Source: Coprobacillus sp. (GTDB lineage Bacteria; Bacillota_I; Bacilli_A; RFN20; CAG-826). Taken from it: a stretch of 64,000 nucleotides of DNA. The notes below the pieces were generated by a model. The model did no database searches and was not told where the DNA came from. It was given only the letters and a program-made list of their open reading frames with translations. Shown here in pieces: positions 30,042 through 46,304 of the stretch. Made by a program: the position numbers and the translations under genes. The stretch lies in NCBI GenBank assembly GCA_021203905.1, contig JAJQAG010000002.1:1-64000 (forward strand). The letters run 5' to 3'. The stretch's first letter is position 1; every line of letters begins with the position of its first letter.

Positions 30042-31181
30042 ATGAAGTATATAGTAGGAATGGATGTCTCCACTTTGCTCGAATGTGAAAGTGATGGAGC
30101 GAAGTATTATGACCACGGAGAAGAGAAAGAATTAATGCATATTCTTAAGGATTATGGCACGAATTCTATCCGTCTTCGCTTATGGCTTGATCCCTATGAT
30201 GAGAATGGAGTGCCCTATGGAGGGGGAACCTGTGATATTGAACATGTCATCACCCTCGCAAAGAGAGCAAAATCTCTTGGTTTATCATTCCTTCTTGATA
30301 TTCATTACTCTGACTTCTGGGTAGATCCTTATAAACAGACGATTCCTAAAGCGTGGAAGAACTATTCTTTTGAAGAACTCGTCAATGTCATGTATACCTA
30401 CACAACTGAGGTTCTCAATCGTTTAAAAGACGAGGGAGTCGCTCCTGATATGGTTCAAGTAGGTAATGAAATTACCTATGGAATGCTCTGGCCTCAAGGA
30501 AAAATTGAAAAGAAAGCTTGGAAGGATTATGGAGCGGATGAGTATGATGACTTCTGCACTCTCCTAAAAAGCGGTATTAAAGCGGTGAGAGATTTTAACC
30601 CCTCTATTCCCGTTATCATCCACATTGAAAGATCATTTGATAATGGTTACTATCGTTTCTTCTTTACTGAGATGGCCCAGCATAATGTGGATTATGACGC
30701 TATTGGATTAAGCTATTATCCTTATTGGCACTTCTCCTTCGATCTTGTCATTAACAATATGATTGATATGTGGAACATGTTCCACAAAGACCTCTATGTG
30801 GTGGAAACTGCTTATGCCTTTACCACAAAACACTACACAGATCGTTGGGACGCCAAACCTCTAGCGGTTGACTCTGAGTATATTCCTTCCAGTAACTACA
30901 CAGTGGAGTTTCCTCTCACTCCAGATGGACAAAAAGAGTTCTTCACTCAACTCCTTCATCGTCTTACTCGAGTGGAAGGATTTAAAGGTATTTATGTTTG
31001 GGAACCCGCATGGTTACCCACCCCCCATTCAACCTGGGCAAGTGAGGGAGCCCTTCGTTATATGGAACTCATTGATAAGATGGGTAATGAGTGGTGTAAT
31101 CAAGCTCTCTTTGATTACAGTGGTAACGCTTTACCCGCTCTTGAAGTCTTTAAAGACTTCTCAAAGAAATATAACTCCTAA
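30042..31181 (+). CDS. Cytoplasmic GH53 galactanase paralogue 1
   Basis: GH53 enzyme of 379 residues with no signal peptide, hence intracellular. The barrel is complete: GMDVSTLLECESDGAKYYD at the N-terminus, RLRLWLDPYDENG, DIHYSDFWVDPYKQ, acid/base Glu 143 in QVGNEIT and nucleophile Glu 255 in VVETAYAF. The likely role is trimming imported galacto-oligosaccharides. SD GGAGAAG; the 105-base gap after the secreted galactanase holds AT-rich inverted repeats, so it may have its own promoter. A strong terminator follows. Confidence 0.92.
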   Translation: MKYIVGMDVSTLLECESDGAKYYDHGEEKELMHILKDYGTNSIRLRLWLDPYDENGVPYGGGTCDIEHVITLAKRAKSLGLSFLLDIHYSDFWVDPYKQTIPKAWKNYSFEELVNVMYTYTTEVLNRLKDEGVAPDMVQVGNEITYGMLWPQGKIEKKAWKDYGADEYDDFCTLLKSGIKAVRDFNPSIPVIIHIERSFDNGYYRFFFTEMAQHNVDYDAIGLSYYPYWHFSFDLVINNMIDMWNMFHKDLYVVETAYAFTTKHYTDRWDAKPLAVDSEYIPSSNYTVEFPLTPDGQKEFFTQLLHRLTRVEGFKGIYVWEPAWLPTPHSTWASEGALRYMELIDKMGNEWCNQALFDYSGNALPALEVFKDFSKKYNS

Positions 31182-31208
31182 ATATAACGATTCAAGGTGT
31201 TAATAAAC

Positions 31209-31245
31209 AAAGACGACCTGTCCTAAAAACGGTCGTCTTTTTTTG
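31209..31245 (+). terminator. Terminator after cytoplasmic GH53
   Basis: AAAGACGACC / GGTCGTCTTT stem with a twelve-base loop followed by a seven-T run. Confidence 0.88.
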
Positions 31246-31487
31246 TGTTTATTATGTCTTTTTCCCTCTTGTGCCCACACCTCATATGCATATGTGCAAA
31301 TAATTGTTGAAATAAAACGACGAGAGAGTAAAATAATACTTGAAATTAGGAAATAAGTGGACACTTTATTTTAGTTAATGAATGTTTTACTTTTTCCTTA
31401 CCCAACATAATTTGGGATTTGTATCAAGGTAATTTTTTTACCTAAAAATTCTTTTTAATTTACTACTATTTTTTGGAGGTAAAACAA

Positions 31488-32834
31488 ATGAAAAAAGGAT
31501 TAAAAGTCTTATCGATTGTCGGTCTCACCGCAGTCAGCATTGGTGCCGTGAGTGCCCTTGCTTCTTGTGGCAGCAAAGAGAAATTCTACATCTGGGGTCC
31601 AGAAGAAGTCATTGATGATCTTGAAGGACAAGTCAATGATTGGCTCGACACTCTTGATGAAGAAGAGTATGAGGATTTCACATCCAAATACAAACTCACC
31701 TACTCTAGTGTTTCTGAGTCCAATGCGGCGGAGCAATTACAGACCGATGTTGGTGCTGCTGGTAGTGTGTACTTCTTCCCACAGGATCAACTTGCACGTT
31801 TGATTAGCTCAAACCTCATTCAACCAGTCTCTAGCACCTTTGCTAGTGATGTGAGAAGTAGAAACGATAGTGGTTCCATTGCTGCTGCTACCGCTGGCTC
31901 CACTCTCTATGCCTTCCCAATCACATCTGATAATGGGTTCTTCGTCTATTACGATGCCACTGCTCTTAATAGCTATGTGAGCACTTTAGACGATGGCACA
32001 ACTGTGGAAGATGTTATTGGTGATCAGACCAAACTTATTGCGGCCGCAACAGCACTTAGCATGACCATTAACTTCAACCTTGCTGAAGATGGTGGTTGGT
32101 ACAACGCTGCCTACTTCTTCGGTGCGGGTGCAACTTCTGAATGGGGTCTTTCTTCAGATGGTAGCTTCTACGCTGAAGGTGTGACCGATACCTATAATTC
32201 TGACGCTGGCCTTCTTGCTTGTGCTGGTATGGCTGAATTAATCAACTCTGGTGTTTGGGTTGATGGTAGTTCCGCTAGCGGCTTCTCTGAATCAGCTCTC
32301 GTTGTCGTTGATGGTACATGGGATTACAATGCCGCTAATGAAGCTCTTGCCACAAGAGAAGGTGGCCACGAATTAGGCTGTGCTCCTCTCTGGACTGTTA
32401 CTGTCAGTGCAGATACACTTTCTACTATCACTGAGGATACGACCTATCAACTCTACACCTTCACTGGTAATAAGCTCATTGGAACAAAGCCAGAAGAAGA
32501 TGGTGAGAAGAATGCTTACGCTCAATCCATTGCTAACTATCTCTCTGACTATGATTGCCAGATGGATCGTTTCAACAAGCATGCCTGGGGACCAAGCAAT
32601 CTCAAAGCTCAAGAGTCTGAGGCTGTCCAAGAGAACCCCGCTCTTGTTGCTCTTAACACTCAATTCTCTTTAGGTGGTGTCCCTCAAGGAAACTATCCTG
32701 ATGAGTGGTGGTACTGGGCCGCTGAGATTGGCTGTGGTATTAGAACTAATGAAGCAACTGACGAAGACGCTTGGGCATCTATTCTTGCTACTTATGGAGC
32801 AAGTTTAACTGAATATATTGATTCATATCTCTAA
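31488..32834 (+). CDS. Sugar ABC transporter solute-binding lipoprotein
   Basis: Binding protein of 448 residues of the maltose/galacto-oligosaccharide type (SBP_bac_1 family). Lipobox LASC (Cys about 27). It begins FYIWGPEEV after the lipid anchor and shows the hinge-typical LYAFPITSDNGFFVYYD and LALVVVDGTWDYNAANEAL-like segments. Start ATG 31488 behind GGAGG; an in-frame TTG at 31473 is inside the leader. A terminator-like hairpin separates it from the permease genes, which would favour excess binding protein over membrane subunits. The 240-base upstream leader holds the palindrome CATATGCATATG. Confidence 0.93.
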   Translation: MKKGLKVLSIVGLTAVSIGAVSALASCGSKEKFYIWGPEEVIDDLEGQVNDWLDTLDEEEYEDFTSKYKLTYSSVSESNAAEQLQTDVGAAGSVYFFPQDQLARLISSNLIQPVSSTFASDVRSRNDSGSIAAATAGSTLYAFPITSDNGFFVYYDATALNSYVSTLDDGTTVEDVIGDQTKLIAAATALSMTINFNLAEDGGWYNAAYFFGAGATSEWGLSSDGSFYAEGVTDTYNSDAGLLACAGMAELINSGVWVDGSSASGFSESALVVVDGTWDYNAANEALATREGGHELGCAPLWTVTVSADTLSTITEDTTYQLYTFTGNKLIGTKPEEDGEKNAYAQSIANYLSDYDCQMDRFNKHAWGPSNLKAQESEAVQENPALVALNTQFSLGGVPQGNYPDEWWYWAAEIGCGIRTNEATDEDAWASILATYGASLTEYIDSYL

Positions 32835-32848
32835 TTGTCAGTTATTTT

Positions 32849-32878
32849 AGGGGCGGGCTATGCTCGCCCCTCCATTTT
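32849..32878 (+). terminator. Intra-operon terminator/attenuator after the binding protein gene
   Basis: AGGGGCGGG-CTATG-CTCGCCCCT (one G-T pair) followed by CCATTTTTA. It lies between the binding protein and its permeases and probably lets only a fraction of transcripts continue. Confidence 0.75.
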
Positions 32879-33036
32879 TATTATTTTGGGTTTCTTATAT
32901 ATTGATATTAGATAGGTAATATATAGTTGCAAAATATATTAGTTAGCCAATCTTAATATGTATCTCTACCCTTTAATCTCATGAAGTATTTAAATCTTCG
33001 GATCTAAATAAAAAATACAAAGGTGGTTATTAAATT

Positions 33037-34557
33037 ATGACTAAGCAGTTAACTACACTTGAATACTTAGGAATGAGTTCTATCAAGAGATTTGGTTACC
33101 GCTCATGGAATCTAATACTATCCCTTCCACATCGATGCATGAATCTTCTTCGTGCTTGTGGGCGTTTCTTTAAGAAATTTGGACTTTGGTGTGCCCATAC
33201 TTGGATTGATATTTGGCAGACCTTTAAATATGGCGATTGGAAAGCGCGCCTTTCGTTCATAGTTATGGGTTTTGACAACATCTGTCATGGGCAATGGCTT
33301 AGAGGATGTGTCTTTCTCCTCTTCGAGGCTGTCTTCATCTGGTTCATGATTGCGTATGGAGGTTTGTGGTTAGCAAGATTGGCCCTCTCTAATCTACAGA
33401 TTGAGTCAATTGAATCCCCAACGATTACTCGTATCGCGGGTTCTAATGTTGTGACCACAGAGTATCAATATGCTGATAACTCCATTAATTACCTCATCTG
33501 GGGTATTCTTACACTCTTTATCTGTATCGCCGCGATTTGGACATGGCGACTTAATGTCAGACAATCCAAACTCTTAAGAGAAGATATGGCCCAAGGTAAG
33601 AGACTCCACAATGCGAAAGATGATGGTTACGCTCTCATTGATCGTCAGTTCCATAGAACAGTGTTAGCATTACCAACAATTGGTATTCTCATTTTTACAG
33701 TAATGCCAATCATTCTTATGATTATGGTGGCATTTACGAATTTCGATGCGTATACGCAACCGCCGATGAACTCCTTTGAATGGGTTGGAGGTCAGAACTG
33801 GTCTACTATCTTTACCTGGAGTAATGGTGGTAACGCCTTCATGGCAACCTTTGGAGAGCTGCTGTACTGGACGTTACTATGGGCCTTCTTCGCAACCTTC
33901 ACTAACTACTTCTTAGGTATGTTCGTGGCGATGATGATTAATAAAAAAGGTATTAAGCTTAAGAAGATGTGGAGAACCTTGCTGGTTATTACCATCGCGG
34001 TTCCACAATTCATCTCCCTCCTCTACCTCTCTCACATGTTTGATAGAAGTGGACTTGTCAACTCCTTCTTCGGTAGTGATGTTGGTTTCTGGGAGAACAA
34101 GTGGATTGCCCGTGTGATGGTTATTGTCATCAACATTTGGGTGGGTATTCCATACTTAATGCTTATTACAACCGGTGTTTTAATGAACATCCCAGCGGAC
34201 CTCTATGAATCCGCGAAGATTGATGGGGCTAATGCGATGCAGATGTATGGAAGAATTACTCTCCCTTATATGCTCTTCGTTACTGGACCCTATCTCTTAA
34301 CTTCCTTTACAGGAAACATGAATAACTTCAACGTTATATATCTGCTTACCGGTGGTAATCCATCAGTGGGTCTCTATAAGCAAGCCGGTGGTACTGATTT
34401 ACTTATCACTTGGTTATTCAAGTTGACCACTCAAGGTGATCACTCCTATTACCTCGCTAGTATTATTGGTATCTTCGTGTTCGTCGTTGTCGCAGTTGTC
34501 TCCTTAATTGTGTACAACATTATTCCATCAACAAGAAACGAGGAGGATTTCGCATAA
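33037..34557 (+). CDS. Sugar ABC transporter permease, MalF type
   Basis: Inner-membrane permease of 506 residues. The N-terminal 130 residues form a basic, Trp-rich cytoplasmic stretch and a hydrophobic region (FDNICHGQWLRGCVFLLFEA) seen in MalF-like permeases of Gram-positive galacto-oligosaccharide systems. The BPD transport domain (about 215-495) contains the EAA loop ESAKIDGANAMQMYGRITLP, which docks the ATPase. The stop overlaps the next start (TAATG), with AGGAGG upstream of it. Confidence 0.94.
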   Translation: MTKQLTTLEYLGMSSIKRFGYRSWNLILSLPHRCMNLLRACGRFFKKFGLWCAHTWIDIWQTFKYGDWKARLSFIVMGFDNICHGQWLRGCVFLLFEAVFIWFMIAYGGLWLARLALSNLQIESIESPTITRIAGSNVVTTEYQYADNSINYLIWGILTLFICIAAIWTWRLNVRQSKLLREDMAQGKRLHNAKDDGYALIDRQFHRTVLALPTIGILIFTVMPIILMIMVAFTNFDAYTQPPMNSFEWVGGQNWSTIFTWSNGGNAFMATFGELLYWTLLWAFFATFTNYFLGMFVAMMINKKGIKLKKMWRTLLVITIAVPQFISLLYLSHMFDRSGLVNSFFGSDVGFWENKWIARVMVIVINIWVGIPYLMLITTGVLMNIPADLYESAKIDGANAMQMYGRITLPYMLFVTGPYLLTSFTGNMNNFNVIYLLTGGNPSVGLYKQAGGTDLLITWLFKLTTQGDHSYYLASIIGIFVFVVVAVVSLIVYNIIPSTRNEEDFA

Positions 34558-36077
34558 TGGCAGAAGAAAATGCTGTGGCCACTGTTGTGACCGCCCAACA
34601 AGTGAAAGACCTCGTCTTCGATAATTCCCAAAAGATTGGTGAATTCCGTCTCGTTATGAAGCAAGACATCAAGAGAGCGAGATTTGCCGCAGAGAAAAGA
34701 ACCATTAGAATGACGGAGGGCGATGAGCTCAAAGACATGATTGCCAAGGCGAACTTTGAAGAGAAAGCCTTACAGGTTCAATATGAAGCGAGTTTAGCCG
34801 CTCTCAAAGAGAGACAAGCGCAAGAGTTAGAAGGAGTCACCGATCCTATTGAACTTCAAGAATTAAAACTTGCCCAGCAAGCGGAGTTCAATAAGTTCAT
34901 TGGTCGTGACGATAAAGTCGTCAAGATCCAAAATAAAGCACAAATGCTTGATCTCAAAGAGAGACAAGCGAAAGAGACTGAGGAGTTTGCCGCTCGTAAA
35001 GCGACGGCTTTAGAAGGTCTCAGTGAGGAAGAGGCGAAAGTGAAGAGTGATGAACTCAAAGCGGAAGAGAAAGCCTTAAATAAGAATCACAAGCACGAGG
35101 AAGCTCTTCTTGTGATGAAACAAAGACAACTCTATGCCTCAACTGGTTATTACGTCTCTAAACAACGTAATCACAAGTCCTCTCAAAAACGTAATCGTAT
35201 TATTGCTAATACCTCTATCTATGTGGGCTTAACAATAATCTCCCTTCTCTGGTTATTACCATTCGTCTTCATTCTTCTTCAATCACTCAGAACCGAGACC
35301 TATCATGGTGTCTCTGGTTATCTCCTCTTGATTGATCGAGAATACGATGAGTTTGGTAATGTGATTTCTCGACACTGGAATGTGGGCTGGGATAACTACG
35401 CTGCCCTCTTTAAGACCTCAGAGAATAACTTCTTAAAGTGGTACCTTAACACCTTCATTATTGCGGTGTGTACCGCTGTCGGCCAAACCATTATGGTGCT
35501 TCTTGTCTCCTATGGCTTAAGCCGTCTTAGATTCCGTGGTCGTAAGATGCTCATGAACGTCATGCTCGTGCTCGGCATGTTCCCTGGATTCCTAACGATG
35601 ATTATTCTCTACTGGATGCTCTCCGATATGGGCTTAACTCAAAGTGGTGCGGTTGGAGGTATCATCCTGGTCAACATTGCTTCATCTGGAATGGGCTACT
35701 ATGTCTGTAAAGGATATTTCGATACCATTCCAAAAACACTTGATGAAGCCGCAAGAGTCGATGGGGCAACAAGAGCTGGTGTCTTCTTCAAAGTCATCAT
35801 CCCAATGTCCGGATCAATTATCATTTATGTTATATTAACAGCCTTCATGGGCCCATGGGCTGATTACATCTTTGCCAGCTACATTGCCTTCGGTGAAGAG
35901 AGCTCCTACAACGTGGCTGTCGGTCTCTACACCTGGCTGACGAAAGATCAGATCAACTCAATGTACACAGAATTCTGTGCTGGCGGCGTTTTGGTCGCCA
36001 TCCCTGTGACCGTGCTATTCATGTGTCTACAGAGATTCTATGTTGAGGGTGTCACTGGTGGCGCAGTTAAAGGATAA
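34557..36077 (+). CDS. Sugar ABC transporter permease, MalG type, with a 200-residue N-terminal coiled coil
   Basis: Permease of 506 residues, about 200 longer than the usual 280-300. Residues 1-215 are highly charged and predicted helical, with heptad-like spacing and two copies of LKERQA[Q/K]E at 83-90 and 133-140; no signal peptide, so cytoplasmic. The MalG domain starts near 217 (NTSIYVGLTIISLLWLLPFV) and contains the EAA loop EAARVDGATRAGVFFKVIIP. The extension's repeat resembles one in the C-terminal tail of the cognate ATPase encoded next. Frame and codon usage are continuous, so a fusion artefact is unlikely. Confidence 0.93.
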   Translation: MAEENAVATVVTAQQVKDLVFDNSQKIGEFRLVMKQDIKRARFAAEKRTIRMTEGDELKDMIAKANFEEKALQVQYEASLAALKERQAQELEGVTDPIELQELKLAQQAEFNKFIGRDDKVVKIQNKAQMLDLKERQAKETEEFAARKATALEGLSEEEAKVKSDELKAEEKALNKNHKHEEALLVMKQRQLYASTGYYVSKQRNHKSSQKRNRIIANTSIYVGLTIISLLWLLPFVFILLQSLRTETYHGVSGYLLLIDREYDEFGNVISRHWNVGWDNYAALFKTSENNFLKWYLNTFIIAVCTAVGQTIMVLLVSYGLSRLRFRGRKMLMNVMLVLGMFPGFLTMIILYWMLSDMGLTQSGAVGGIILVNIASSGMGYYVCKGYFDTIPKTLDEAARVDGATRAGVFFKVIIPMSGSIIIYVILTAFMGPWADYIFASYIAFGEESSYNVAVGLYTWLTKDQINSMYTEFCAGGVLVAIPVTVLFMCLQRFYVEGVTGGAVKG

Positions 36078-36089
36078 AGGAGAAATATT

Positions 36090-37631
36090 ATGGCAGAAGT
36101 AAAATTAACAAATGTCAAAAAAATGTACGATAACCGTGTGGTCGCGGTCCACGATTTCACTCTTACCATTAAAGATCGTGAGTTCATCGTTATCGTTGGT
36201 CCCTCTGGCTGTGGTAAATCCACAACTATGCGTATGATCGCAGGACTTGAAGAAATCTCAGATGGCACTGTTGAAATTGATGGTGTCGTTGTTAACGACT
36301 TAGAGCCTAGAGATAGGGATGTCGCCATGGTATTCCAAAACTACGCTCTCTACCCACACCTTTCAGTTTTTGAAAACATGGCCTTCGCCTTACGTATCCG
36401 TAAGGTCCCAAGAGAAGAAATCTTCGAACGTGTGAAGAATGTCGCTGAGACATTAGGTATCACTGAATACCTCGCTCGTAAACCAAGAGCTCTCTCCGGT
36501 GGTCAAAGACAACGTGTGGCTATCGGCCGTGCCATGGTTCGTGAATCAAAAGTCTTCCTTCTCGATGAGCCATTATCTAACCTCGATGCGAAGTTAAGAA
36601 ACGCCATGAGAGCGGAGCTCATTGCCCTTAGAAAGAAAATTGATTCCACATTTATTTACGTGACTCACGATCAAACTGAAGCCATGACTTTAGGTGATCG
36701 AATCGTGGTCATGAAAGATGGTAAGATTCAACAAGTCGGCACTCCTAGTGAAGTGTTCGACACTCCATACAACCTCTTTGTCGCGGGCTTTATTGGCGCT
36801 CCTCAGATGAACTTCTTCTCTTGTGATCTCACCAAGACCGAAGAGGGCAAATACGTTGTTGACGTCTTTGGTGTTCCTATGGAAGTTTCAAATGAGAAGA
36901 GAGATTGTCTCCTCGCTAATGGCGTGGAGTCTCGTAAGGTTGTCTTAGGTGTCAGACCAGAGCATATCACCTTAGGAAAGAAGGGTGATACCTTCTGCTT
37001 CCCCGCAACTGTTGATATCTCTGAAATGATGGGTAGTGAAGTGCACCTCCACGTGACCTGCCCTAATCAACAATCCATCATTGTCCGTGTCGCTACTCTT
37101 ACTCTTTCTCCAAAAGAGAAAGCTGCTCTTGAGCCAGGCAATGTTATCTATTTACACTTCACTGGTGCGGCGATGCATCTCTTTGATCCTGACACCACAA
37201 GAAACTTAATCGTTGATCCCACAATTGATATTCCTGTGGCCTACAATGAGATGGGTGATAATGTCACCATCGCTGAGAGTGCGGAAGAGAGTGAGAAGAC
37301 TCACTTCCAGGAGCAACTCGACGATCTCAAGCAACAACAGAGAGAAGAAATTCAACAAGCGACCTCTACTGAAGAGATCAAAGAACTCAAGAAAGTGCAT
37401 GCTTCTCAAATTGCGGACTTAAAAGCTCAACAAAAAGAAGAGCACAAAGAGAGAGTGATAAAAGATAGAGAAAAACTCGCTGAAGAGAAAGAAAAAGCTA
37501 TCGCTATGGAGAGAGAAATCCGTGAAAAGAGAGCTCTCGCTCGTGCGGAAAAAGCGGGCTTAATCTCTGATGCCGAGCATAAGGAAGAAGAAGTCAAAAA
37601 AGAGAGAAAGAACAAAAAGGGTGAAGAGTAA
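36090..37631 (+). CDS. Sugar ABC transporter ATPase (MsmX/UgpC type) with coiled-coil tail
   Basis: ATPase of 513 residues energising sugar uptake. Walker A GPSGCGKST (38-46), Q loop VFQNYALYP, signature LSGGQRQR (135-142), Walker B VFLLDEPLSNLD and switch His in THDQTEA; a regulatory TOBE/OB domain runs to about 378. MalK relatives normally end near 370; here about 120 more residues form a Lys/Glu/Gln-rich coiled coil (about 395-513) with LKQQQREE (413-420) and LKAQQKEE (444-451). These match the repeats in the adjacent permease's N-terminal extension. SD AAGGAG, twelve bases after the permease stop. Confidence 0.94.
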   Translation: MAEVKLTNVKKMYDNRVVAVHDFTLTIKDREFIVIVGPSGCGKSTTMRMIAGLEEISDGTVEIDGVVVNDLEPRDRDVAMVFQNYALYPHLSVFENMAFALRIRKVPREEIFERVKNVAETLGITEYLARKPRALSGGQRQRVAIGRAMVRESKVFLLDEPLSNLDAKLRNAMRAELIALRKKIDSTFIYVTHDQTEAMTLGDRIVVMKDGKIQQVGTPSEVFDTPYNLFVAGFIGAPQMNFFSCDLTKTEEGKYVVDVFGVPMEVSNEKRDCLLANGVESRKVVLGVRPEHITLGKKGDTFCFPATVDISEMMGSEVHLHVTCPNQQSIIVRVATLTLSPKEKAALEPGNVIYLHFTGAAMHLFDPDTTRNLIVDPTIDIPVAYNEMGDNVTIAESAEESEKTHFQEQLDDLKQQQREEIQQATSTEEIKELKKVHASQIADLKAQQKEEHKERVIKDREKLAEEKEKAIAMEREIREKRALARAEKAGLISDAEHKEEEVKKERKNKKGEE

Positions 37632-37673
37632 TCTCCCCTAGTTGTTAATCCTATTTAGTTAACTTTTCCTTTT

Positions 37674-39500
37674 ATGGCAGACAAGTTTATTGTCAATGTC
37701 ATCCATCGTCCAGAACTTTCCCCTGAATACGCCGAAAAGGTGAACGGCAGGGGAAAGAAAGCGGACGTGGGGGCAAATGAACTTCACAACGAATCTCTTG
37801 ACATCTTCCTTCTTCAACAACGCTTAGCCCATGAGAATGGACTTAAAACTACAATTCAAATTACATATGCCTCATTATTTAATGATGAGATAGTGGAAAT
37901 TGCCAAACATGATCACGAGACTTACGGAGATGAGATATCCCTTTCCTTACTCGGTCTTCCTTGTGATGAATTTAAGGCAAAATACCAAACGAAGGATTTC
38001 TGTATCTGGATGTTTTCGAAAGAGGATAAGAGAAAGATCATTGATGATTGTTTCTCGCTTTTTTATACCAAATTCGGCTTCTATCCAGAGAGTACAGGTT
38101 CCTATTATCTTGATGCCTACACCATTAACTACATCAAGAAAAAATATCCCAGTGTGATCTGCGTGATTGCTACTTGCTGGGAAGAAGGCCCCAAGGCTTA
38201 TCACACTTGTAATAACTCTTGGTATACCTTCATGGATGGTGGTCCATGGGCTCCATGGATTCCCTCTAAAGAGAACACTCATTGTCCTGCGATGAATGAA
38301 AAGGATGATAGTGGAGTGGTCGCTATTCCCCACCTCTCTCGTGACCTCATCGCCTGCTTTGATGGGAATGGTTCTAATTTTGGAACCCACCCTCAAAATG
38401 TTATTCGTGGTCTCTTATATAAAGATAATGAACTTCCATACTTCTTCAACCTTGTGGATCAATATCGTCACCTCGCTAAGTATAATAATGGACTCGCCTA
38501 CAACATGTGCTTTGTTGGTCCTGGATGGCTTAATAAAGCGGGTCGTTGGGAAGCCCCCTACGAACTATTAGAGAAAGCCTATGAAGATGGGATGGCGTAC
38601 TACGGGAAACTCAAGAAACAAGGTCTCTGTGAAGATATGACCATGAGTGAGTTCGCCCGCTATTATCGAAGTGTGAAAACTTATCAAGAACCAGAAGTCG
38701 CGCTTTGGAAAGATATCATCTATGGAAGCCAAAAGCAGTATTTCTGGTATGTTGACCCCTACTTAAGATGTTGTCTTGATTTCAATCAAGGAGGAGCGAT
38801 GATTGATCTCCGTCCTTATGTCGCTCAACTCAAGTGGGAAACAGGGATTGGGACAGATCACGTCTATGATGCTTCCTATCCTTACCTTATTCAAGCCAAC
38901 TATCGAGCGGGTTATTTTACCCACTATGCCGGAGCGGGCACAGTGAAATCTCTTAAAGTCTCTTATAAGAATGAAGAAGTGGATCTTGCCCTTGTAAGAT
39001 GTAAAGCTTCTTATTCTAAAGAAGGGGATGACACCGTGATTACCACCACTCCAGTGGATATCAAGTTCCAAAGCTTTACGATGAAACTACAATCTCGTTT
39101 CATCTTTAAGAGAGGAACTGGTGAAATTATTATTGAGAGAAATATCCTTAATGATATTGGAAAGAGAGAAGTCTTATTTGATGAGTACTTTACTGGAGCC
39201 TTTGGCACCACCGAATATCAAAGTGATATGACCAAACTCAAACTCTACGCCATTGGAGAGAAAGAGAAAGCGAAAGTCAACTTCAACTACAAATGCCGTA
39301 TTCGTGATGTCAACGATTGCAAGGTTGTCGGAGTGAAGATCCCTGATGTTGAGACGATTGTCGAGATGAGTGGGGATAATGACTATGGAGAATTTGAAGA
39401 AGGCCACGCTTTCAGCCCCTCATATCGTCTCTCCTTAAAGAAAAAAATTACAACAGGAGGAGGTATGAGAACATGTCTCAAGCTAAAAAAGGCCGCTTAA
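37674..39500 (+). CDS. Enzyme-like protein of unknown family in the galactan operon
   Basis: Cytoplasmic protein of 608 residues, no signal peptide. Residues about 1-250 read like an alpha/beta barrel of the polysaccharide-deacetylase/GH57 kind: QQRLAHENGLKTTIQITYAS, a DISLSLLG-like strand, and FYTKFGFYPESTGSYYLDAY followed by aromatic Trp-rich loops (DGGPWAPWIPS). The C-terminal part (about 400-600) is beta-rich. I cannot assign catalytic residues. It lies between the transporter ATPase and a cytoplasmic GH53, so action on imported galactan fragments is likely but inferred. No Shine-Dalgarno precedes ATG 37674; its end overlaps the next gene by 28 bases. Confidence 0.82.
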   Translation: MADKFIVNVIHRPELSPEYAEKVNGRGKKADVGANELHNESLDIFLLQQRLAHENGLKTTIQITYASLFNDEIVEIAKHDHETYGDEISLSLLGLPCDEFKAKYQTKDFCIWMFSKEDKRKIIDDCFSLFYTKFGFYPESTGSYYLDAYTINYIKKKYPSVICVIATCWEEGPKAYHTCNNSWYTFMDGGPWAPWIPSKENTHCPAMNEKDDSGVVAIPHLSRDLIACFDGNGSNFGTHPQNVIRGLLYKDNELPYFFNLVDQYRHLAKYNNGLAYNMCFVGPGWLNKAGRWEAPYELLEKAYEDGMAYYGKLKKQGLCEDMTMSEFARYYRSVKTYQEPEVALWKDIIYGSQKQYFWYVDPYLRCCLDFNQGGAMIDLRPYVAQLKWETGIGTDHVYDASYPYLIQANYRAGYFTHYAGAGTVKSLKVSYKNEEVDLALVRCKASYSKEGDDTVITTTPVDIKFQSFTMKLQSRFIFKRGTGEIIIERNILNDIGKREVLFDEYFTGAFGTTEYQSDMTKLKLYAIGEKEKAKVNFNYKCRIRDVNDCKVVGVKIPDVETIVEMSGDNDYGEFEEGHAFSPSYRLSLKKKITTGGGMRTCLKLKKAA

Positions 39501-39733
39501 ACTATCGTTGTCCACAGTGCTTTGCCCGTGATATCGATATGGATCTCTTCTACGATACAGAAAAGAAAGAGTATTATTGCCTCAGATGTTGCTTTAGAGG
39601 GAGTGAGGAAGAGATCCTCGCTCTCAACGAACAAAATAAAGGCAAGTATGGTCTCCTCACCAAGAGAGTGGACTCCTTTGGAGAGGACACTGAACCCATT
39701 CATTACCATGAGTATGAGAAAGGTGAACTCTAA
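39473..39733 (+). CDS. Small zinc-ribbon protein
   Basis: Protein of 86 residues. Two cysteine pairs, YRCPQCFARD (residues 13-16) and YCLRCC (about 36-39), make a rubredoxin/TFIIS-like zinc ribbon; the C-terminal 45 residues are charged and unrecognised. GGAGG lies upstream, inside the preceding gene, and the stop overlaps the GH53 start (TAATG), so it is embedded in the operon at both ends. Role unknown: a regulator, an RNA-binding protein or an enzyme cofactor are all possible. Confidence 0.75.
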   Translation: MSQAKKGRLNYRCPQCFARDIDMDLFYDTEKKEYYCLRCCFRGSEEEILALNEQNKGKYGLLTKRVDSFGEDTEPIHYHEYEKGEL

Positions 39734-40848
39734 TGGTCTTAGGTATTGATGTTTCTAGCTATGAAGAGGTTATTGCCTCTGGAGTGAAATTCCTCGATCA
39801 CGGAAAAGAATGTGATCCCATTAAGGAACTTCATAAACAAGGATGTGACCTAGCACGTATCAGAGTGTGGCTTGATCCTTACGATAGTAAGGGGAAACCC
39901 TATTATGGTGGCACTAGTGATAAAGCTCACTTCTTCTCTCATGCGAAGATGATGATGAAGTATGGCTATAGCATTATGGTGGACTTCCATTACTCTGATT
40001 ATTGGGCGGATCCCTCTAAACAAGTCCCCCCAAAAGCTTGGGCCCACAAAAGTATAGATGAACTACAAGACGCCGTTTATAACTATACAAAAGAGTTCCT
40101 CCTAGAATGTGTTAAAGAAGGAATCGATGTTAAATACATTCAAATCGGGAACGAAATTACTAATGGAATGCTCTTCCCTACAGGTGCCCTTTTAGAGTGG
40201 TCTCATGGTGGAAAGCATAATTATGGAAACTTTATCTCTTATTTAAAGGCAGCGTCTAAAGCCTGTCGTGAAGTTGTTCCTCTCGCGGGAATTATCGTTC
40301 ATGTTGAGAGAACCGCTTATACGGAGTGGATTACGGAATTCTTCACCCGCTTAAACGAAGCGAGACTTGACTACGATATTATCGGTTGTAGTTATTATCC
40401 CTTCTGGCATGGAGGCTTTAGAGATTTTGAGTCTTCTCTCGCTAATCTCAAACATTTCTGTCCTCGGGTGATGATCGTGGAGACTGGATATGGATTTACC
40501 GATACTCCCTATTTCCTTAAACCCGCGAAACCTAAAGAAATTGAAGAAGCGAGACAAGCCTATATTAAGTACTTCTCCACACCTCTAGAAGTTCCTCTTA
40601 CACCAGAGGGTCAATGTGAGTTTATCGACCGCATCTTTGATCTTGCCGAGAAGTATGAACTTGAGGGAGTGTGCTATTGGGAACCCCTTTGGTGCAGTGG
40701 TAAAGATGGCTATCCACAGAATCCTAATGCTTATAAGTATGTGGGAGAGAAGTATCACTACTCAAAGAGTGTCATGGCGAATACTTGTCTCTTCGACTAC
40801 GATTGGGAGAAACTCCCGGCCTTTGGTCACTTTAAAAAGAGAAAGTAA
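39733..40848 (+). CDS. Cytoplasmic GH53 galactanase paralogue 2
   Basis: Third GH53 enzyme, 371 residues, no signal peptide. MVLGIDVSSYEEVIASGVKF starts the barrel; RIRVWLDPYDSKG, DFHYSDYWADPSKQ, acid/base Glu 141 in QIGNEIT and nucleophile Glu 250 in IVETGYGF are intact. The start overlaps the zinc-ribbon gene stop. Last gene of the galactan transport operon, followed by a terminator. Divergent enough from paralogue 1 to suggest a different chain length or branch preference (inference). Confidence 0.92.
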   Translation: MVLGIDVSSYEEVIASGVKFLDHGKECDPIKELHKQGCDLARIRVWLDPYDSKGKPYYGGTSDKAHFFSHAKMMMKYGYSIMVDFHYSDYWADPSKQVPPKAWAHKSIDELQDAVYNYTKEFLLECVKEGIDVKYIQIGNEITNGMLFPTGALLEWSHGGKHNYGNFISYLKAASKACREVVPLAGIIVHVERTAYTEWITEFFTRLNEARLDYDIIGCSYYPFWHGGFRDFESSLANLKHFCPRVMIVETGYGFTDTPYFLKPAKPKEIEEARQAYIKYFSTPLEVPLTPEGQCEFIDRIFDLAEKYELEGVCYWEPLWCSGKDGYPQNPNAYKYVGEKYHYSKSVMANTCLFDYDWEKLPAFGHFKKRK

Positions 40849-40868: not shown

Positions 40869-40893
40869 AAGGCACCAGATGGTGCCTTTTTTG
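40869..40893 (+). terminator. Terminator of the galactan operon
   Basis: AAGGCACC-AGAT-GGTGCCTT stem leading into TTTTTT. Confidence 0.88.
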
Positions 40894-44483: not shown

Positions 44484-45502
44484 TGAATGTCGTAATTCTA
44501 TCGGATACTTATTTACCTGACCTCTCGACAGAATCCCTAGAGGTCGTTAATACTGTTTCTCTTTTAGAGAGAAGAGGAAACAGAGTTTTAGTCATGGTTC
44601 CCTCAAAGAGAAAAGAGAGCTATGAAGATGATGGAGTGCACTATCTCTCAAAAAATGAGAGAAATAAAGTCACTGACTCTCTTAAAGAGAGAATTCTTAA
44701 TTTTAAGAGCGAAGTGGTGCATTCTTTCTCCCGCTCCCTAGATAAACTCGCCGAAGACATTCATGTTCAGTGTGGAATCGCTCTGGTGAAAACCATCGTG
44801 CCCACAAAAGAAGAGATTGTCGCGGATGAAGTGATTGTGAGGAGTGAAGAAGAGAGAAAACTCTTAAGAGAATATAACCTTGATATTCTTATCAATGTTT
44901 TACCAAGAGCGATAGATCCTCTTCCCTTTACTAGTCTTCACATCTCTAAGGATCGAGTGGTGCAGTTTGAAAGTGAGAACGGGATGAGTGAAGCCACAAA
45001 AGTCTTTCTCGCGATTACTCCTTTAGAGAAAGAGATGGCCCCTCAAACCCTTATCCGTGTCTTTAGTGCGTTTCACACTGCCCATCCTGAGATAGATGCA
45101 AAACTATTTATCCTTGGAGAGGGGAGTGAGAGAACCTCTTTAGAATTACAAGCCCATGAACTTCATGTCCCCGAGTTTGTCGTCTTTCCTGGTTATATCA
45201 AATATGAAGAGCTACCTTTCTATTTTTCTAGAAGTAATCTCTATATATCTATTAATAGAGATAAGGAAGAAGAGATGTGTCTTATCTGTGATCTCATGAA
45301 TAAACCATATCTTATCTATTCTGATGATGTGGTTAGTCCTCATACCTATAAAACCGAACATGGGTTTGTTGAAAATGCCTCCACTCTTTTAAGTGAAGAA
45401 GAAGTGGTCTCTTCTCATCCTGAAATCCCATTTCAGGATGGAGAGAGTTATGTGAGTAAACTAATGGAGATCTATAATAATGCCAAAAGAAAAGCCTGGT
45501 AA
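44483..45502 (+). CDS. Glycosyltransferase, GT4-like and divergent
   Basis: Protein of 339 residues with the GT-B fold order of family 4: N-terminal MNVVILSDTYLPDLSTES and a C-terminal half with LFILGEGSERTSLE, FPGYIKYEELPFYFSRSNLYIS. It is shorter than typical GT4 diacylglycerol glucosyltransferases, and the usual EGFG-type donor motif is replaced by REEMC-like residues (DKEEEMCLICDLMNKPYL). Membrane glycolipid synthesis with the upstream flippase-like protein is the best guess. SD GAGAGG; 3' end overlaps recX by 23 bases. Confidence 0.78.
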   Translation: MNVVILSDTYLPDLSTESLEVVNTVSLLERRGNRVLVMVPSKRKESYEDDGVHYLSKNERNKVTDSLKERILNFKSEVVHSFSRSLDKLAEDIHVQCGIALVKTIVPTKEEIVADEVIVRSEEERKLLREYNLDILINVLPRAIDPLPFTSLHISKDRVVQFESENGMSEATKVFLAITPLEKEMAPQTLIRVFSAFHTAHPEIDAKLFILGEGSERTSLELQAHELHVPEFVVFPGYIKYEELPFYFSRSNLYISINRDKEEEMCLICDLMNKPYLIYSDDVVSPHTYKTEHGFVENASTLLSEEEVVSSHPEIPFQDGESYVSKLMEIYNNAKRKAW

Positions 45503-46304
45503 GACTTATACTATCTCCTGTATAAAGGTTTTTAAAACCTGTGTTCACGTCTCTTTTAAAGAGAGAGATATGGATACGATGAGACTTGAGAGTGAAACCT
45601 TTACTAACCATCTCCTCTATAGTGGAAAGACTCTCTCTAAGAAAGAGTTAGATGAAATCTTACATGAAGATAAACTCTCTCATATCTACACAGTGGAGAG
45701 AAATGCTCTTTTAAAGAAAAGACAGACAGAGAGAGAAGTAAGAGACACTCTTAAAGAGAAATTTAATAATCCGAACTATAAAGATATTAATTACATTATT
45801 GATAGATTAAAGGATGTGAAGTTAATTGATGACGAGAGTTATGCGATTGACTTCATGGAACTAGGGAATCTCCACAACTGGGGAGAGAATAAGATTAAAG
45901 AGAAACTAAGAGAAAGGGGTATTAGTCATGAGATACTAGATTCTCTCTCCTTTGATCTTGATATTGAAGTGGAGAAAGGAAGAAATCTCCTACCCACACT
46001 TCTAAGCCGCTACAAGAAGTATCCCCTTAATGTGATGAAGGGGAAAATAAGAAATACCCTCCTCTATCAAGGCTTCTCTCATGTGGCGGTTAATAAGATC
46101 CTTGATGTGGACATCAAAGAGGATACCGAAGCCGTTCTTTCTAATCTTGAGAAAGATATGAAACGAGCGGTGGCTTCAAGAAGTCGTAAGAAGGAAGATG
46201 AGAGAGAAATTAAACAAAAGGTTATCGCTACCCTTTTACAAAAAGGGTATCAATATAATAAAATAAATGAAGTATGGGACAAGTTACATTATGAAAATGA
46301 TTAG
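45480..46304 (+). CDS. recX: Regulatory protein RecX
   Basis: RecA-modulating protein, 274 residues, all helical with repeated three-helix units. Visible: LLYSGKTLSKKELDEIL near the N-terminus, the YIIDRLKDVKLIDDESYAIDF repeat and the GENKIKEKLRERGIS repeat (about 130-150). Length matches the long Firmicutes RecX. The ATG lies inside the glycosyltransferase gene; the 3' end overlaps the yhaM start. Confidence 0.88.
   Translation: MPKEKPGKTYTISCIKVFKTCVHVSFKERDMDTMRLESETFTNHLLYSGKTLSKKELDEILHEDKLSHIYTVERNALLKKRQTEREVRDTLKEKFNNPNYKDINYIIDRLKDVKLIDDESYAIDFMELGNLHNWGENKIKEKLRERGISHEILDSLSFDLDIEVEKGRNLLPTLLSRYKKYPLNVMKGKIRNTLLYQGFSHVAVNKILDVDIKEDTEAVLSNLEKDMKRAVASRSRKKEDEREIKQKVIATLLQKGYQYNKINEVWDKLHYEND

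Follow-up and report, generated by a model that had tools for sequence, protein, structure and literature searches.

The genome of Coprobacillus sp. (GenBank assembly GCA_021203905.1) was found to encode a sugar importer in which a MalG-type permease and the MsmX/MalK-type ATPase of the adjacent gene each carry a long charged, predicted helical extension. The importer genes lie within positions 1 to 64,000 of contig JAJQAG010000002.1, and this 64,000-nucleotide stretch is referred to as the window. As judged by Pfam matches and gene order, one operon encodes two BPD_transp_1 permeases, an ATPase with OB and TOBE domains and a solute-binding protein, and the importer belongs to the CUT1 (MalFGK2-like) ATP-binding cassette (ABC) sugar importers. 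Helical extensions on both the permease and the ATPase are a new architecture within importers of this kind. As judged by profile and pairwise comparison, the two extensions are more alike than their composition would explain; this signal is real but modest, and a putative inter-subunit clamp between them is plausible.

Anatomy of the two extensions

Orthologues can be aligned with the permease from about residue 205 onward and with the ATPase up to about residue 380, which leaves about 205 N-terminal residues of the former and about 130 C-terminal residues of the latter as extra. An earlier note, made from the sequence of the window alone, had given about 215 and 120 extra residues and had described both extensions as charged and helical; Pfam domain limits and the orthologue alignments bear out the extra lengths in substance, and the helical character agrees with prediction. 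The LKxxQxxE motifs are exactly where that note had placed them, at residues 83 and 133 of the permease and 413 and 444 of the ATPase, and a further permease copy at residue 103 (LKLAQQAE) had been overlooked. Of the composition shuffles, 0.04% placed at least two such motifs in each extension. The extensions are real and not an artefact, and they are modestly unusual.

Across the window species (G000) and its two sister species (G071 and G027), the permease extension shares about 37–43% identity, is of near-constant length (about 203–205 residues) and includes the non-repeat motifs FAAEKR and F-GRDD-V, both invariant.

Resemblance between the extensions

The likeness had been proposed in the earlier note from an ungapped comparison of permease residues 80–111 with ATPase residues 410–441. 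The count of 10 identities in 32 residues is correct, but 82% of shuffled tails hold a 32-residue window as good or better, so this comparison is uninformative and was discarded as evidence.

Comparison of profiles, built from the three species for each extension, places the similarity above both shuffles and natural helical controls. Using hhalign, the permease extension and ATPase tail aligned with a probability of 82% (E 1.1e-5), and the score was reached by 0/150 column-shuffled, 0/150 heptad-permuted and 0/150 hendecad-permuted controls, while the reversed ATPase tail scored 25 against 38 for the true one. As natural controls, 64 charged-helical segments from the same bacterial family were used. 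The Smith-Waterman score of the window species pair (106) exceeded those of all 64 (best 84), and the sister pairs scored 123 in G027 (controls at most 113) and 79 in G071 (controls at most 78). Against 3776 cross-subunit pairs taken between operons, the pairs of the window species, G071 and G027 ranked 11, 99 and 2, respectively. When the four genus genomes were searched with each extension profile up to E 10, the partner extension was the sole cross-hit, and a weak one (E 0.02 to 0.06).

Profile searches of the PDB with the extensions gave weak helical matches only, the best being a designed protein (E 0.01), and no relatives were found among viral contigs. A PADLOC match to the ATPase tail (E 0.003) was taken as charged-helix similarity.

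Helix type and predicted fold

The earlier note had proposed a coiled coil; the periodicity tests on six extension sequences disclosed a hendecad rhythm instead of a heptad one. Hydrophobic residues recur with an 11-residue period in all six (each p 0.045 or less), and no heptad signal was detected in any (p 0.5 or more), the GCN4 control being positive. In the pooled sequences, the autocorrelation z was highest at lag 11 (4.4), followed by lag 8 (3.4) and lag 22 (2.7), and was -0.7 at lag 7. The hendecad test is a composition-shuffle design of our own and not a published predictor; in it, GCN4 scores as heptad and not as hendecad. Enrichment of i/i+4 salt bridges of the ER/K type was not above shuffles either. 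Both a classical heptad coiled coil and an ER/K-type single alpha helix were therefore rejected for the extensions.

The AlphaFold2 model of the permease alone has helices at residues 54–91, 97–114, 118–152 and 157–194, with the TDP motif in the first turn, and a helix at residues 197–243 that continues into the first transmembrane helix. A read-through fusion of permease and ATPase, permitted by the reading frame, was folded as one chain. In the fused model the ATPase tail also forms a hairpin, and the predicted hairpins of the two extensions turn at the same motif. The fused model was poor overall (predicted template modelling score 0.33) and, given this low confidence, was dropped as a route to an interface.

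Distribution and origin

When 224 family genomes were searched with the profiles, each extension was matched in full only in G000, G071 and G027, the members of the genus that hold the operon, and neither extension was found in the 221 others. Neither protein has a close match in the fourth member of the genus, G050 (78% complete). No such extension is present on permease orthologues of 54–63% identity from the rest of the family or from further families of the class, the exception being a differently extended orthologue in G133; with that exception, orthologues at 54–68% identity lack both extensions. As both extensions are confined to one genus, they arose on one branch, in a single evolutionary event, which is consistent with coupling.

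The two extensions occur together in all three sister species with the operon (3/3) and in none of the other genomes (0/221), but this counts as one event. Among 68 complete family operons, three have both the permease extension and an ATPase C-terminal tail, one has the first alone, one the second alone and 63 have neither (p 3e-4, the three being one clade). Locus L084 has an ATPase tail and no permease extension; this charged tail looks low in complexity. Strict family-wide co-occurrence was rejected, since other charged helical add-ons are found on one subunit only. The earlier note had named extensions present independently of one another in relatives as an observation against its proposal; this applies in part, as single-subunit add-ons such as the L084 tail and inserts in ATPases or MalF occur in related importers.

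A second matched pair

A second resembling pair was found in a different genus of the same family (G133, locus L070), where an insert in MalF resembles the N-terminal extension of MalG with a score of 155, higher than that of any of the 3776 pairs between operons, and with 44% identity over 70 residues. It shows no relation to the window pair beyond helical controls. Similar helices on two subunits of a single importer have thus arisen at least twice.

For the two matched pairs, identical codons were counted at 21/38 (about 46% expected) and 18/31 (about 52% expected) identical residues. Recent DNA copying between the paired genes was rejected, as codon sharing is what codon usage predicts. 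The second pair is the best indirect argument that the matching has meaning, and old copying within an operon would explain it too.

Helical add-ons across the family

The source genome is 790 kb in five contigs, and the family consists of small-genome Bacilli (about 0.8–1.5 Mb). MalF, MalG and the ATPase were read together in 83 family operons, 68 of them complete, with a threshold of at least 60 residues for a charged-helical segment; the helix statistics for whole genomes derive from profile searches and selected stretches. Such segments are present in 10/83 MalF, 4/83 MalG and 42/68 ATPases, and 49 of the 68 complete operons carry at least one. In a first comparison, 21/43 family operons and 2/19 operons of other families had a segment (p 0.004), fewer of the outgroup loci including the ATPase gene. 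MsmX-type reading frames longer than 450 residues made up 105 of the 150 listed in the family and 3 of the 81 listed in other families of the class.

Positions of the add-ons vary. In ATPases they are found as inserts in the nucleotide-binding domain between the Q loop and the signature, as inserts in the regulatory region (in ATPases of about 850 residues) or as C-terminal tails, and in permeases at the N-terminus or in a loop of MalF and at the N-terminus of MalG. Segments in MalF and in the ATPase tend toward mutual exclusion (p 0.004, kinship ignored). The window importer is one instance of a family-wide habit of charged helices on the cytoplasmic side of importers, whichever the subunit.

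The MsmX-type ATPases of about 850 residues at L088–L090, L100, L101, L104 and L200 have an enlarged regulatory region and a long helical insert of heptad type. Those of about 625–630 residues at L192, L193, L196, L197 and L199 have an extra C-terminal half without a charged-helical segment that resembles added regulatory domains; as this type adds regulatory-type sequence instead, the extra length of the ATPases is not wholly helical. A further MsmX-type ATPase, in G027 (L063:3336-4952, minus strand), carries about 100 additional charged residues at its N-terminus, together with a regulatory-domain insert.

Similar segments were seen outside CUT1 importers. A ribose/galactose-type ABC permease of 553 residues (L123 and L125, in G112 and G085) has a charged helical N-terminal extension of about 200 residues. 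OppD and OppF (L262–L281 and class-wide) have charged helical inserts of about 50–290 residues in the nucleotide-binding domain, commonly in both halves of the pair; since they occur throughout the class, they were rejected as a family-specific trait, and inserts within one operon were not clearly more alike than between operons. Some OppF proteins of Mycoplasma also have long inserts. The Opp ATPases of the window genome lack large helical inserts and have short charged ends only. A coiled-coil protein with an Ig-like tail (L122, G016:C143) gives the impression of contamination of a metagenome-assembled genome, possibly archaeal.

Dedication of the ATPase by gene arrangement

Two CUT1 importers were found in the genome, each with its own ATPase in the operon, and no CUT1 permease pair was seen without one, an arrangement that differs from that of a shared, multitask ATPase. 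As the earlier note had suggested, the window ATPase is, at least by gene arrangement, dedicated to its own permease; this follows from the arrangement alone, and the extensions are not needed for it. The ATPase of the second importer (G000:C2, L061:3954-5879, minus strand) has 641 residues, with an insert of about 260 residues between the Q-loop region and the ABC signature, and ATPases of 640–643 residues like it are present in the sister species (L043, L048 and L049).

The gene cluster

The genes of the cluster (Table 1) are all transcribed in the same direction, at 30042–40848 of the window. The MalG-type permease matched the NCBIfam MalG model with E 7.1e-42, under the cut-off of the model, and the best Foldseek matches of its AlphaFold2 model were MalG chains (E 1.7e-11, template modelling score by target 0.70). 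The ATPase is homologous over its full length to MsmX in the PDB (6yir, E 4e-112) and has the Pfam domains ABC_tran (residues 21–162), OB_MalK (236–293) and TOBE_2 (286–365). A charged-helical segment was looked for in the MalF-type permease of the window and none was found.

GH53 is the endo-beta-1,4-galactanase family. Because the cluster includes two GH53 genes, the cargo is probably beta-1,4-galactan oligosaccharides, on this circumstantial evidence of the neighbours. Searches of Pfam, NCBIfam, PADLOC and the PDB gave no match for the 608-residue protein, which by context is a candidate new sugar-active enzyme. The stem-loop after the binding-protein gene possibly reduces read-through into the permease genes. 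Elsewhere in the window, a 274-residue open reading frame at 45480–46304 has long charged-helical segments (residues 26–146 and 200–269).

Table 1 Features of the importer cluster in the window and of the matched pair in G133. Positions are those of the window unless a locus is named; pLDDT, predicted local distance difference test.
Feature	Position	Strand	Evidence
GH53 family glycoside hydrolase (endo-beta-1,4-galactanase family)	30042..31181	+	Pfam PF07745, E 1.8e-105; signal peptide not evident
Solute-binding lipoprotein of importer	31473..32834	+	Pfam SBP_bac_8, E 5.5e-14
Terminator-like stem-loop between binding-protein and permease genes	32849..32871	+	10-pair stem then T run; pattern scan only
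MalF-type permease, 506 residues	33037..34557	+	Pfam BPD_transp_1, E 3.4e-17
MalG-type permease, 506 residues	34557..36077	+	Pfam BPD_transp_1, domain at residues 323–495
Permease cytoplasmic N-terminal extension, residues 1–205	34557..35171	+	Absent from orthologues; conserved in two sister species
Predicted helical hairpin 1 of permease, residues 54–114, turn at VTDPI	34716..34898	+	AlphaFold2, pLDDT about 77–84
Predicted helical hairpin 2 of permease, residues 118–194	34908..35138	+	AlphaFold2, pLDDT about 82–90
MsmX/MalK/UgpC-type ATPase, 513 residues	36090..37631	+	NCBIfam NF008653, 460.8 bits (cut-off 432)
ATPase C-terminal extension, residues 386–513	37245..37628	+	Absent from orthologues; conserved in two sister species
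Predicted helical hairpin of ATPase tail, residues 398–423 and 427–488, turn at TSTEE	37281..37553	+	AlphaFold2 of read-through fusion, pLDDT about 64–81
608-residue protein, family not assigned	37674..39500	+	Homologue in L042, downstream of ATPase in sister species
Second GH53 family protein	39733..40848	+	Pfam PF07745, E 2.8e-79; signal peptide not evident
Terminator-like stem-loop, cluster end	40869..40888	+	Pattern scan only
MalF of G133 matched pair	L070, 4986-7040	minus	Insert resembling the MalG extension
MalG of G133 matched pair	L070, 3832-4986	minus	N-terminal extension

Discussion

The account tentatively preferred here, which we regard as quite possible though short of probable, is that of a CUT1 importer whose MalG-type permease and MsmX-type ATPase both gained cytoplasmic helical-hairpin extensions on the branch to one genus. 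The permease extension would form a helical bundle that hangs from the first transmembrane helix alongside the ATPase dimer. The two ATPase tails would start from the regulatory domains, at the far end of the dimer, and dock on the permease bundle or on each other. Such docking may steady the assembly and keep the ATPase private to its own permease. A broader proposal, that the family builds dedicated importers with pairing hairpins on two subunits at the cytoplasmic base, with at least two origins (MalG–ATPase and MalF–MalG) and in place of a shared ATPase, is on present evidence rather unlikely.

Several findings weigh against docking of the two extensions. The similarity in G071 is barely over its controls and its pair ranks only 99th of 3776, and helices on the ATPase or MalF without a partner are common. 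The ATPase tail measures 128, 119 and 208 residues in the three species; that of G027, the longest, has grown by about 80 residues via expanded internal repeats with the length of the permease extension unchanged, a difference hard to square with a strict residue-by-residue zipper. The permease extension was modelled with a pLDDT of 77–90 alone and 63–81 when fused to the ATPase, although the fused model was poor overall, and it probably folds independently. In a serious rival, hardly less likely than the preferred account, the family tolerates or favours charged helical add-ons on importer subunits, and the two extensions are independent decorations that do not bind each other. Their likeness would come from old copying of a hairpin between neighbours or from a common short helical repeat that grew in both, and each would fold alone or act as a spacer or docking surface. 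The frequency of add-ons in the complete family operons, their changing positions and the excess of oversized ATPase frames in the family point to this rival, as do the confident model of the permease extension alone and the repeats of the G027 tail. Against it stand the partner extension as sole cross-hit in each genome of the genus, a similarity that beats natural controls in three species, two unrelated matched pairs within single importers and the absence of a DNA trace of copying.

Two further explanations appear less probable. The extensions could be a scaffold that recruits cytoplasmic partners, such as the GH53 enzymes or the 608-residue protein, so that the oligosaccharide is cut at the gate. 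The regulatory domains of MalK are known hubs for regulators (PMC11466899), the GH53 proteins lack evident signal peptides, the 608-residue protein is conserved, and the invariant motifs of the permease extension are as a binding surface would show; yet the enzymes carry no extension and the closest orthologous importers outside the family are without extensions as well, and we consider this improbable. Slightly more remote still is neutral or near-neutral growth, without function, of charged helix of low complexity in a genome that is reduced and evolves fast. Low-complexity tails do occur elsewhere, as in L084, and the presence, place and length of the add-ons shift quickly, but the conservation of the permease extension in identity, non-repeat motifs and length over three species, the retained hendecad rhythm and a genome of only 790 kb are hard to reconcile with it.

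If the docking account is true, a helical clamp tying an ATPase to one permease would illustrate how a shared motor turns private, and the clamp would be a portable module with which ATPases could be coupled to transporters of choice. Should it be wrong, oversized importer subunits with shifting helical add-ons in reduced genomes are an unexplained and under-described trend. The earlier note had known of no described importer of this kind, and our literature search, which did not extend to subscription papers, likewise found no description of such importers or of the family-wide trend.

Comparison with known systems

The importer follows the plan of E. coli MalFGK2 (PDB 2R6G, 3PUV and 4JBW), with MalF, MalG, two TOBE ATPases and a binding protein, but in the latter the MalG chains in the PDB have about 285–295 residues and MalK about 380, with no such extensions. 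In Bacillus subtilis, MsmX energises GanSPQ, and known MsmX ATPases serve more than one importer and can be exchanged across importers and species (PMC7658222). The window ATPase is homologous to MsmX over its full length and, from the GH53 neighbours, the cargo class is probably the same as that of GanSPQ; however, MsmX of B. subtilis is encoded apart and shared, whereas the window ATPase is encoded in the operon and has a helical C-terminal tail, and the window permease differs from GanSPQ in its helical N-terminal extension. The OppD and OppF proteins of related Bacilli also have charged helical inserts, but these lie in the nucleotide-binding domain between the Q loop and the signature and not on a permease. 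The G133 pair at L070 is alike in having two resembling helical subunits and differs in that these are MalF and MalG, without an ATPase tail.

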